This document shows positions 24,414-61,016 of a stretch of DNA of 64,000 bases, piece after piece. Below the pieces are notes generated by a model. It made no database searches. It saw nothing but the letters and a program-made list of their open reading frames with translations, and was not told where the DNA came from. The translations under genes were made by a program, and so were the position numbers. How positions within the stretch are numbered: position 1 is the first letter of the stretch; every line of letters starts with the position of its first letter. The DNA is from Chitinophagales bacterium. GTDB taxonomy: Bacteria; Bacteroidota; Bacteroidia; Chitinophagales; Chitinophagaceae. The stretch covers positions 2,294,001 through 2,358,000 of the forward strand of contig JAFLBJ010000001.1 in the NCBI GenBank assembly GCA_017303415.1. Reading direction: 5' to 3'.

Positions 24414-24504
24414 GTCGTAAGACGTGAGTCGTGAACCGTGAGACGTTGGCCAAAACTCACGTCTCACGATTCACGACTCTCGTCTCATGCCTCACTATTC
24501 ACTT
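24414..24504. repeat. Thirteen phased heptads forming an imperfect palindrome
   Basis: The left arm reads GTCGTAA, GACGTGA, GTCGTGA, ACCGTGA, GACGTTG; the spacer is GCCAAAA; the right arm reads CTCACGT, CTCACGA, TTCACGA, CTCTCGT, CTCATGC, CTCACTA, TTCACTT. The arms are reverse complements at about 25 of 29 positions around the spacer, and variants are mirrored (GTCGTGA on the left faces TTCACGA/CTC on the right). It lies between the divergent starts of gtrA and argS. Confidence 0.8.
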
Positions 24505-33179: not shown

Positions 33180-33207
33180 TATAGCTATTAGCTAATAGCT
33201 ATAAGCT
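33180..33207. repeat. Heptad array / 24-bp perfect palindrome between convergent genes
   Basis: Heptads TATAGCT, ATTAGCT, AATAGCT, ATAAGCT in phase. The stretch 33180-33203 is a perfect 24-base palindrome. It lies between the GLPGLI stop (33177) and the amylase stop (33207), and shares ATAAGCT with the dnaK terminator. Confidence 0.65.
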
Positions 33208-41288: not shown

Positions 41289-42266
41289 ATGGCAAAGAAA
41301 ATGATCAATGAGCAGTTGGCGATCGGTATTGATATTGGCGGAACCGGAACCAAGTTTGGTATCGTGGACAGAAATGGAAATGTACTTTTCTCCAGTGAAC
41401 TGGCTACCCGGAACCATGCCGACATCGATAGTTTTATCAGTGAGCTTCATGAGCGATTGATGGAATTAGTGGAAAAGGCCGGTGGTGTAGGAAAATTCAA
41501 AGGCATTGGTGTAGGTGCACCGAATGGAAATTTTTATACCGGCACCATTGAATATGCCCCCAACCTGCCCTGGAAAGGGATCATCCCGCTGGCCAAAAAG
41601 GTCCAGGATAAATTTCATCTGCCGGTTACCGTAACCAATGATGCCAATGCGGCTGCCATCGGCGAAATGATGTATGGCGCTGCCAAAGGCATGAAGGATT
41701 TTGTGATGATCACCCTCGGTACCGGTGTGGGTAGCGGATTTGTGGCCAACGGCCAATTGATCTATGGACATGATGGTTTTGCCGGAGAACTCGGTCACAA
41801 TATCATCATCCCCGATGGTCGCCTGCATGAAGGCACAGGTAAACGGGGTTCACTGGAAAGTTATGCTTCTGCTACTGGGGTTACCCTTACCGCCCTTGAG
41901 GTATTGTCAAAAAGTACTGAGGATAGTCTGTTACGCCAGGTGCCAGCGGAAGAAATGAGTTCCAAAAAAGTATATGAAGCCGCTATCCAGGGAGATAAAT
42001 TGGCCAAGGAGATTTTTGAATATACAGGCCGGATCCTTGGTATTGCCCTGGCGAATACGGTGATGAATTTCAGCCCCGAAGCCATTATTCTGTTTGGCGG
42101 ACTCACCAAAGCTGGTGACCTTATTCTAAAACCCACCAAAGAACATATGGAAGCCAATGTGATCGAGGTATTCCATAATAAAGTAAAAATATTGATCAGT
42201 CACCTGAAAGAAAGTGATGCGGCTATTCTTGGCGCAAGTGCGTTGGTGTGGGATGGAACGAAGTAG
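41289..42266 (+). CDS. ROK family sugar kinase, probable glucokinase
   Basis: 325 residues. Phosphate loop IGIDIGGTGTKFGI near residue 11, VTNDANAAAIGE (catalytic Asp), ITLGTGVGSGFV and the GELGH histidine. The usual ROK zinc site CxCGxxGCxE is replaced by LHEGTGKRGSLES from about residue 179: no cysteine remains. This zinc-less form occurs in Bacteroidota. Expected to phosphorylate glucose taken up by the upstream FHS transporter or released from maltodextrin. The TAG stop is followed after one base by a 13-unit heptad array. Confidence 0.9.
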   Translation: MAKKMINEQLAIGIDIGGTGTKFGIVDRNGNVLFSSELATRNHADIDSFISELHERLMELVEKAGGVGKFKGIGVGAPNGNFYTGTIEYAPNLPWKGIIPLAKKVQDKFHLPVTVTNDANAAAIGEMMYGAAKGMKDFVMITLGTGVGSGFVANGQLIYGHDGFAGELGHNIIIPDGRLHEGTGKRGSLESYASATGVTLTALEVLSKSTEDSLLRQVPAEEMSSKKVYEAAIQGDKLAKEIFEYTGRILGIALANTVMNFSPEAIILFGGLTKAGDLILKPTKEHMEANVIEVFHNKVKILISHLKESDAAILGASALVWDGTK

Positions 42267-42267
42267 A

Positions 42268-42358
42268 GAGACGTGAGACGTGAAGCGTGAGACGTGAGAC
42301 GTGAGACGTGAGACGTGAGACGTGAGACGTGAGACGTGAGACGTGAGACGTGAGACGT
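42268..42358. repeat. Thirteen tandem GAGACGT heptads
   Basis: Exact 7-base period, twelve units GAGACGT and one variant GAAGCGT (42282-42288). Begins one base after the ROK kinase stop. On the plus strand each GTGA junction contains TGA, so all three frames are closed within 21 bases. Confidence 0.95.
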
Positions 42359-42394
42359 GAAAAATATTTTGGGGTTGTAAGATATGGGTTTTAA

Positions 42395-42457
42395 GTTTCA
42401 CTATTCACTATTCACTATTCACTTTTAACCACTCACGCCTCACGTCTCACGTCTCAC
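42395..42457. repeat. Second heptad array, complementary to the first
   Basis: Nine phased heptads: GTTTCAC, TATTCAC three times, TTTTAAC, CACTCAC, GCCTCAC, GTCTCAC, GTCTCAC. The last four are complementary to the GAGACGT array, so the pair can fold into a hairpin in several registers. The array runs into the phosphodiester glycosidase gene and encodes its last five residues and TGA stop on the minus strand. Confidence 0.9.
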
Positions 42458-43402
42458 GATCAAAAACACCCCCGGCACGGCCCGCTGTCCTTCCTTATCT
42501 GAAGGTTTGATCGTTTCTTTTCCGTTTATCAAAAGGCAACTACTTCCTCCCCCATCCAGGTTCATGGCTTCTATGCAACCGATTTCTTTGAGCATTTGGG
42601 CAAGTTGGGTAAGGCTGGCTCCTTCGGCCAATCCGGGCATTCGTCCCTGCACGACCAACAACACTAATTTTCCATCGGCCGTATAACCCATTGCGGAGCG
42701 TGGATGTTTGTCGTCTATGGCTTTTCCGGCAAATTTCCCTTCTTCATTATTGGTGATCATAATTTCCCCATTCTGGACCAAAACAGGACCCCCTCCTACT
42801 GCCGCGATTGGTTTCCATTTACGCCACCCGGTATAGGTGCCGGCAAAAAATGAAAAATCTGTATCCTTGATCGAATCCCTGATCAGGGAGGGTACAGGGT
42901 TTTGAAGCGCCAAAACTTTTCGGCTGCCCGAATCAGTCCAGGTCCAGGCTATATCCGCAGTTCTGTTTTTAAAAATACCGATGGCGCTTCCCAAGGGGTG
43001 ACGCCAGGTCAACGTATCCTTGCCTCTTCCGGGCAGCGAGTGGATATTATAGGCAACCAGTTTTTTGTCTTTGATGATCAGGTTAAGGTTTTGATGGGTT
43101 TGAAAGGAAAAGAAGGTCGTATTGATCACCGCCAGGGCTTTTTCATTTTTTTGATAAAATTCTCCGGGGGTGAGTCGGCGCTTGTAGGTGGTGTCCGTTT
43201 TGAATTGAAGTTGTTTATCTTTTAGATCAGCGATCAGGTAATAGGCGATATTAGGTTTGCCATCTACCAATGATTCCGTTTTATATACCTGAACGGAGTT
43301 TGGTAACGGATTATATTGGTCGGTGACGTTTTGCCATTGTAACTGGGCATTGGAATGAATGGACAGAATGGAAAATGGTAATAGCAGCAACAGGAGTTTC
43401 AT
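42440..43402 (-). CDS. Secreted phosphodiester glycosidase family protein (NAGPA domain)
   Basis: 320 residues; signal peptide ending SNAQ. Typical NAGPA/DUF2233 motifs: AAVGGGPVLVQNG, RSAMGYTADGKLVLLVVQGR, and MNLDGGGSSCL near the C-terminus. The mammalian member removes GlcNAc from a phosphodiester; in bacteria the domain occurs in exopolysaccharide and cell-wall proteins, with substrate unknown. It is the last gene of a unit with the beta-barrel protein, lipA and the lectin gene. The final VRRET and stop come from heptad repeats, so the original C-terminus may have been altered by repeat expansion. Confidence 0.87.
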   Translation of the reverse strand: MKLLLLLLPFSILSIHSNAQLQWQNVTDQYNPLPNSVQVYKTESLVDGKPNIAYYLIADLKDKQLQFKTDTTYKRRLTPGEFYQKNEKALAVINTTFFSFQTHQNLNLIIKDKKLVAYNIHSLPGRGKDTLTWRHPLGSAIGIFKNRTADIAWTWTDSGSRKVLALQNPVPSLIRDSIKDTDFSFFAGTYTGWRKWKPIAAVGGGPVLVQNGEIMITNNEEGKFAGKAIDDKHPRSAMGYTADGKLVLLVVQGRMPGLAEGASLTQLAQMLKEIGCIEAMNLDGGGSSCLLINGKETIKPSDKEGQRAVPGVFLIVRRET

Positions 43403-59964: not shown

Positions 59965-60462
59965 ATGGACGATTCAGTTTCCACATATTATCACTCCCCT
60001 GTTGGCCTGTTGAAGATCAGCAGTAACGAAACCTATATTCAGGAAGTAAGTTTTTATGACAAAACAGAGGTGCATGAACCTCGTCATCGTCATTTACCGG
60101 AGGTAATGGTACATTGCGTGGAACAATTGATACAGTACTTCAATGGGGCCCTTCGGCAATTTGATCTTCCGATCAAACAGGAGGGTACAGCTTTTCAACA
60201 GGATGTCTGGAATCAATTGATGACGATCCCTTATGGGAAAACGATCTCCTATCTTCAACTGGCGCGTCAATTAGGTGATGCAAAGGCCATTCGCGCCGCT
60301 GCCAGTGCCAATGGCAAGAACCAGATCGCGATCATTGTTCCCTGTCACCGGGTTATAGGCTCCAATCGAAGTTTGGTGGGATATGCCGGAGGATTGTGGC
60401 GCAAGAAATGGTTATTGGAACATGAGGCGAAGTATGCGTATGGGATCCAAACGCTTTTCTAG
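59965..60462 (+). CDS. ogt: Methylated-DNA-protein cysteine methyltransferase
   Basis: 165 residues. Suicide repair of O6-methylguanine: alkyl acceptor Cys127 in IVPCHRVIG; DNA-binding YLQLARQLGDAKAIRAAASANG before it; a degenerate N-terminal domain as in Ogt. The stop is followed immediately by the heptad array at 60463. Confidence 0.95.
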   Translation: MDDSVSTYYHSPVGLLKISSNETYIQEVSFYDKTEVHEPRHRHLPEVMVHCVEQLIQYFNGALRQFDLPIKQEGTAFQQDVWNQLMTIPYGKTISYLQLARQLGDAKAIRAAASANGKNQIAIIVPCHRVIGSNRSLVGYAGGLWRKKWLLEHEAKYAYGIQTLF

Positions 60463-60539
60463 AAATAAGAAATCAGAAATAATAAATAAGGAATAAGGAA
60501 GGCGACCCACCTCCTTATTCCTTATTTCTTTTTCTTTAT
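60463..60539. repeat. Eleven phased heptads with a perfect 16-bp hairpin, running into cdd
   Basis: AAATAAG, AAATCAG, AAATAAT, AAATAAG, GAATAAG, GAAGGCG, ACCCACC, TCCTTAT, TCCTTAT, TTCTTTT, TCTTTAT. The arms 60484-60499 and 60512-60527 are perfect complements, loop 12 bases. It starts directly after the ogt stop, and the right arm encodes the last residues and TAA stop of cdd. A bidirectional terminator function is likely. Confidence 0.85.
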
Positions 60540-61016
60540 CTCCTGTCCTGTAAATGCCATGGGCAGCAATTCCATGGCACTTGACAATATAATCACTGGT
60601 CCTGTTTTTCCTCCCAGTATCAAGCGGATGGGTTTACCACTTCTTAATTCATATTCAGCAAGGGATTGTCTGCAAATACCACAGGGACTGATGGGGTGGT
60701 CACTGGTACCCTGTTCAGTGTCGTAGGTGATGGCCATGGATTCGATGGTGGCATCAGGATGCATGGAACTGATGGCGGAGAGCAACACACGTTCGGCGCA
60801 GATACCTGCAGGAAAAGAGGCGTTCTCCTGGTTGGTGCCGGTTAATACCTTTCCGTTGTGCAATTTTGCAGCCGCTGCTACATGGAAGTGTGAGTAAGGT
60901 GCATAGGAGGCGGAAGTGGCCTCATGTGCTTTTTCCAGCAGGTCACGGTCAGCTTTCTCCAATTCTGCTGCCGACGCAAATTCCTGGTATTCCGTTGTCA
61001 ATTGACGAGGCTTCAT
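60522..61016 (-). CDS. cdd: Cytidine deaminase
   Basis: 164 residues. Zinc site formed by CAERVLL (Cys and catalytic Glu) near residue 92 and PCGICRQ near 131. Converts cytidine and deoxycytidine to uridine forms in nucleoside salvage. The final IKKKK and the TAA stop are encoded by heptad repeats that continue into the intergenic array, so the Lys tail may be a by-product of the repeat. It lies 29 bases after lepB and is probably cotranscribed. Confidence 0.93.
   Translation of the reverse strand: MKPRQLTTEYQEFASAAELEKADRDLLEKAHEATSASYAPYSHFHVAAAAKLHNGKVLTGTNQENASFPAGICAERVLLSAISSMHPDATIESMAITYDTEQGTSDHPISPCGICRQSLAEYELRSGKPIRLILGGKTGPVIILSSAMELLPMAFTGQEIKKKK

Follow-up and report, generated by a model that had tools for sequence, protein, structure and literature searches.

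What has set two long arrays of 7-base units face to face between the genes of a ROK-family kinase and a phosphodiester glycosidase in a member of the Chitinophagales, and is the arrangement peculiar to this locus? We analysed a stretch of 64 kb around it (the window), together with samples from the rest of the genome and from relatives. We place the bacterium in the Chitinophagaceae from the named relatives of its glycosidase and from the kinship that the genome search indicated.

Anatomy of the locus and the end of the glycosidase gene

The ROK kinase gene (ORF 41289..42266, plus strand; PF00480, E = 4.6e-56) and the gene of the phosphodiester glycosidase of the NAGPA family (ORF 42440..43402, minus strand; PF09992, E = 3.2e-33) are convergent, with the heptad pair between them. 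The TAG stop of the kinase ends at 42266, directly before the left arm (42268..42363, plus strand), which by direct reading of the sequence and by TRF consists of 13 heptads, among them ten consecutive GTGAGAC, one GTGAAGC and, innermost, GTGAAAA. Read in the phase GAGACGT, 12 of the 13 units are exact and the remaining one is GAAGCGT; for 42268-42360 TRF gives 13.3 copies with 95% match and no indels. The strand is purine-rich and contains TGA in each frame. An AT-rich core of 31 bases, ATATTTTGGGGTTGTAAGATATGGGTTTTAA (42364..42394), separates this arm from the right arm (42395..42457, minus strand), which by the same two methods comprises nine heptads, on the minus strand GTGAGAC twice, GTGAGGC, GTGAGTG, GTTAAAA, GTGAATA three times and GTGAAAC, on the plus strand TTTCAC, three TATTCAC, TTTTAAC (a degenerate unit), CACTCAC, GCCTCAC and two GTCTCAC. 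Direct reading thus bears out the 13 near-perfect units after the kinase and the nine YTCAC-type units that a first, sequence-only reading had described; its spacer of 36 bases matches the TRF limits, the GTGA phase giving 31 bases, and unit-like sequence resumes at 42395-42397.

That reading had also taken the last four units of the right arm to be complementary to the left array. The final two are its exact complement, the two before them nearly so, and pairing between the arms, likewise claimed, agrees with a predicted RNA fold of −85.5 kcal/mol (z = −7.5 versus dinucleotide shuffles). Chance is excluded as the source of the pattern: an exact 21-base pattern has 58 matches in the genome and its reversed control 0, and windows of four GTGARNN units number 757 versus 0 in the control.

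The right arm, in its outer units, contains the last codons of the glycosidase gene (42440..42457, minus strand), GTG AGA CGT GAG ACG TGA, encoding VRRET and the stop, just as had been proposed. The PF09992 match stops at residue 315 of 320, before VRRET, and comparison across relatives found VRRET in none of them, the conserved domain ending upstream of it. Tails of the form RRET, RET or REA recur on unrelated proteins at gene ends overlapped by arrays. The absence from relatives, the earlier end of the domain and the shared tails support the view that VRRET and the stop of the glycosidase are repeat-derived.

Inward heptad pairs in the genome and in the family

From the genome (3.72 Mb) we sampled 1.264 Mb, made up of the window and 60 stretches of 20 kb each. 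A scan blind to the unit found 185 period-7 segments in 1.26 Mb, a density biased upwards because pattern hits guided the choice of many early stretches and of some later ones, versus 0 after a Markov shuffle. Periods 14, 21 and 28 appeared as multiples of 7 and all others within 4-30 gave 0-7 segments; period 7 is the sole abundant tandem period in the sampled genome. The units belong to the families GTGARNN, GATGWYR and GCTAAWA, plus rarer ones, and at least three families occur mainly as inverted repeats. The ROK/glycosidase locus is one among dozens. Called the largest heptad locus by the sequence-only reading, it keeps that rank inside the 64-kb window and loses it in the genome, where arms of 19, 17, 16, 15 and 15 units are found elsewhere. 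That reading, supported in part, had missed both this genome-wide class of inward pairs and the mutual dependence of their arms.

Within the window a second GTGA-type inward pair (24424..24502) adjoins an ORF start, and a pair of another family, AGAAATA units followed by TCCTTAT units, lies at 60461-60544, its first part containing the stop codon of ORF 59965-60462. At 33181-33207 a GCTA-type heptad palindrome, ATAGCTATAAGCTA, stands between ORFs and probably belongs to the GCTAAWA family.

Polarity and arm comparisons are independent of how the stretches were picked. Inward pairs make up 55 of the 68 loci of the GTGA family, outward pairs none, and all 70 GTGA or GATG loci with two arms have the purine-rich arm first (left); the opposite polarity was scored for the single AATT-type locus with two arms, whose units contain almost as many purines as pyrimidines. 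With nhmmer, some ten loci of the genome showed cores similar to ATATTTTGGGGTTGTAAGATATGGGTTTTAA, partly by construction since the model was built from those cores. A conserved mobile core between the arms was rejected, most loci having other spacers or none and no core being found without arms.

The arrays lie close to genes: in the GTGA and GATG families a median of 5.5-9 bp separates the edge of a locus from that of an ORF. Among gaps of 40-600 bases, 33 of the 98 between convergent genes contain heptads, as do 60 of the 348 tandem gaps and 11 of the 108 divergent gaps (convergent versus divergent, p = 7e-5), gaps at 5′ ends being understated because each ORF start was set to the first possible codon. 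Arrays also occur in divergent gaps and just before start codons. In the sampled stretches 41 ORFs stop inside an array, 34 of them (83%) with TGA, as compared with 30% elsewhere. Of 100 GTGA arms, 97 carry stops in every frame of the inward strand and 92 are free of start codons on the outward strand; the orientation therefore provides stop-rich sequence downstream and start-free sequence upstream. The rule on stops holds less well for GATG arms (46 of 78). Genes of the sampled stretches whose stop is followed by an array at a distance of at most 15 bp over-use TAG (23 of 53 versus 19% elsewhere), which may be a remnant of older GTGAATAG units.

Many relatives have kept the convergent ROK/glycosidase pair. 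Period-7 segments are present in its gap in 5 of 15 genomes (the source genome included); in randomly chosen stretches of relatives 1 convergent gap of 27 had them. The units differ from genome to genome: GTGAGAC in the source genome, NTGAGCT, AAAGTCA, TTAATTA with TATTCAC, and GTGAAAG in the others. The corresponding gap at L041 shows by eye a short mirrored TTGAAAA-like pair, below threshold. At L010 and in genome G009 the glycosidase stop lies in or beside the local array, with different tails. A three-unit pattern searched in 147 family genomes was inward in 10 and outward in 0. Most relatives are without such arrays. GTGA arrays are absent from G001, the sole congener compared, and the GATG family is abundant in the source genome only, among 59 relatives. 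Few period-7 segments came from 20-kb samples taken at random from relatives, one of them masked. Genome G004 is array-rich (117 four-unit windows) and has 0 GTGA inverted pairs, unlike the other heptad-rich genomes; its ROK/glycosidase gap holds an inverted AAAGTCA pair instead.

Origin of the pairs

The two arms of a locus are alike in the order of their units. Mirror order reached z = 6.7 when compared with shuffled unit order and z = 6.5 when arms were re-paired between loci; re-pairing in the GATG family gave z = 3.7. Arm lengths within loci correlate (rho 0.34 and 0.44), and unit runs are shared between arms, seven consecutive units in one pair and four different units in another. Within arrays identical units are adjacent more often than in shuffles of the same array (z = 8.3 and 6.0), which lends indirect support to the slippage that the sequence-only reading had thought likely at the locus. 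Mirror order together with clustered identical neighbours is what slippage within arms and hairpin copying between arms would give; the mirror order could equally stem from selection for pairing.

We regard, with moderate confidence, slippage in 7-nt steps combined with hairpin-templated copying of arms, filtered by tolerance at gene ends, as the best explanation. The strands would slip in whole 7-base steps inside one arm, by which the left arm would have expanded to its ten identical GTGAGAC. A single strand would fold into a hairpin, so that one arm could be copied onto the other, keeping unit content and order alike. The arrays would grow outward until they reach the edges of the flanking genes, where the inward-reading strand would replace an unconstrained C-terminal tail and its stop codon, harmlessly because this strand has TGA in all frames. 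They would persist mostly at the 3′ ends of genes, chiefly between convergent ones, because promoters and conserved coding sequence should be intolerant of arrays. The arrays would bring no selected benefit. The different units at the orthologous gap, judged from sequence comparison, count in favour of slippage and copying. If slippage acted alone, each of the seven positions should drift; instead, four of them are nearly invariant over hundreds of dispersed GTGA and GATG units and only three vary, which hints at selection or at a sequence-specific generator; copying alone leaves the common inward polarity of unrelated unit families unexplained.

The SbcCD nuclease cleaves DNA hairpins. Its subunit SbcD was not detected above the cut-off in the source genome and is missing at this cut-off from 32 of the 36 family members searched (source genome counted), a loss with a possible bearing on the stability of palindromes. 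All family genomes with GTGA inverted pairs are without SbcD above the cut-off, as are most heptad-free genomes, and heptad genomes possessing it have few inverted pairs; for the 17 heptad-bearing genomes the one-sided hypergeometric probability, calculated by hand, is about 0.05, a value confounded by kinship. As support for hairpin copying the link is weak: G004 is array-rich and lacks SbcD, yet has no GTGA inverted pair. Loss of SbcCD as the cause was rejected, most heptad-free family genomes lacking SbcD too.

The pairs might instead be selected 3′-end elements that end or stabilise transcripts from both sides, a purine-first, pyrimidine-second repeat folding into a long RNA hairpin at a time when the polymerase holds a weak pyrimidine-RNA:purine-DNA hybrid; this we consider possible but doubtful. 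It would account for the strong fold, the fixed inward polarity, the mirrored arms, the enrichment in convergent and depletion in divergent gaps, and for an orthologous gap with other heptads, which suggests that the arrangement is kept and the sequence is not. Like intrinsic (Rho-independent) terminators the pairs are hairpins 3′ of stop codons and frequent between convergent genes; in contrast to them the stem is very long, a T-run does not follow and arm lengths vary greatly between loci. At the ROK/glycosidase locus the hairpin itself is strong, a GC-rich hairpin followed by a T-run is absent and no terminator-like site was found in the gap. Since the transcript is predicted to fold strongly and the gap is without an ordinary terminator, termination by the hairpin is possible there, and a side effect as a bidirectional 3′-end RNA hairpin is plausible. 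Conventional terminators, however, are not rarer in convergent gaps with heptads (52%) than in those without (42%), so that arrays as substitutes for ordinary terminators are unsupported there; the occurrence of arrays in divergent gaps and before start codons, and the many relatives that do without them, also speak against a selected 3′-end function. Because terminators are as common in heptad gaps, we treat this function as a rival rather than as the main reading.

It is rather unlikely that a dedicated generator or binding protein, working in 7-base steps or recognising heptads, spreads and maintains the arrays. The exclusive period of 7 across several unit families in one genome, the four fixed and three variable positions of the unit and the patchy distribution between genera would fit such a protein, but no candidate gene was found. 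One known system, REP/REPIN elements with GTAG/CGTC repeats and their RAYT transposases (PMC3733652), has dispersed extragenic palindromes in common with the heptads, which differ in the missing GTAG tag, in tandem units instead of a fixed stem and in showing no association with Y1 transposases. Heptads were absent from the Y1 flanks inspected (the best of the four copies in the source genome and four in relatives), and heptad-rich G009 has no RAYT/Y1 gene; since presence of the gene does not track the arrays, RAYT/Y1 was rejected as generator. A RAYT-like Y1 gene of the source genome (L118, G000:C1:260625-263969) is flanked by its own GTGCTCCGTAGGAGCAC-type palindromes, a REP-like family unrelated to the heptads.

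That the number of units acts as a phase-variation switch, tuning the expression or the C-terminus of glycosidase or kinase, is very improbable: a long uniform array does sit at a gene end, but the repeat-encoded tail of the glycosidase is not part of the conserved domain, it stays short at any unit number because all frames contain TGA, and arrays border many unrelated genes. G-quadruplexes, proposed for heptads of the same architecture in Xanthomonas and Nostoc, can practically be dismissed, since GTGAGAC, GTGAATA, GATGACG and GCTAAAA are without runs of three G and quadruplexes of this kind cannot form.

Relation to other bacterial heptads and implications

For Xanthomonas (GGGAATC, (GGGANTN)n) and Nostoc (GGGGA(T/C)T), heptads have been discussed as quadruplexes, with 70 and 75 pairs in convergent orientation in two Xanthomonas, few arrays between divergent ORFs and varying length at shared sites (Rehm et al., 2015; PMC4692102). 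Common to both systems are the 7-base unit, its fixed and variable positions and the many dispersed intergenic arrays; in our genome, too, intergenic tandem heptads are genome-wide, convergent pairs lie near ORF edges and fewer arrays lie in divergent gaps. The unit tables, however, list no units with tracts of at least three G. Four further features seem not to be reported for those heptads: several unrelated families combined in one genome, arms mirrored in unit order, arrays supplying stop codons and different units at orthologous gaps.

TAACTGA heptads are known from Beggiatoaceae, some Cyanobacteria and five Bacteroidetes (MacGregor, 2015; PMC4679880). They too are intergenic direct repeats, patchy across phyla and with long arrays in some Bacteroidetes; in the Beggiatoaceae genome they have a single sequence, lie mostly upstream of start codons and are almost never inverted. 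The arrays described here have neither this unit nor the upstream, direct arrangement. A partial search of the literature found no published description of the unit strings of the source genome.

We would suggest, as a speculation with little probability so far, that a sequence-tolerant, hairpin-acting process with a 7-base step makes inward arrays, several of them unrelated in sequence, at the ends of genes in distant phyla. If so, arrangement and period would be inherited and the sequence would not, in Bacteroidota here and in Xanthomonas and Nostoc in the literature. The constants of bacterial heptads are the 7-base period, the inward purine-first pairing and the position at gene edges, the variables the G-tracts and the particular sequence, which removes quadruplexes as a general explanation. 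The excess of 7-base repeats reported for bacteria becomes testable in one genome with several families, in which repeats rewrite the C-termini and stop codons of ordinary proteins.
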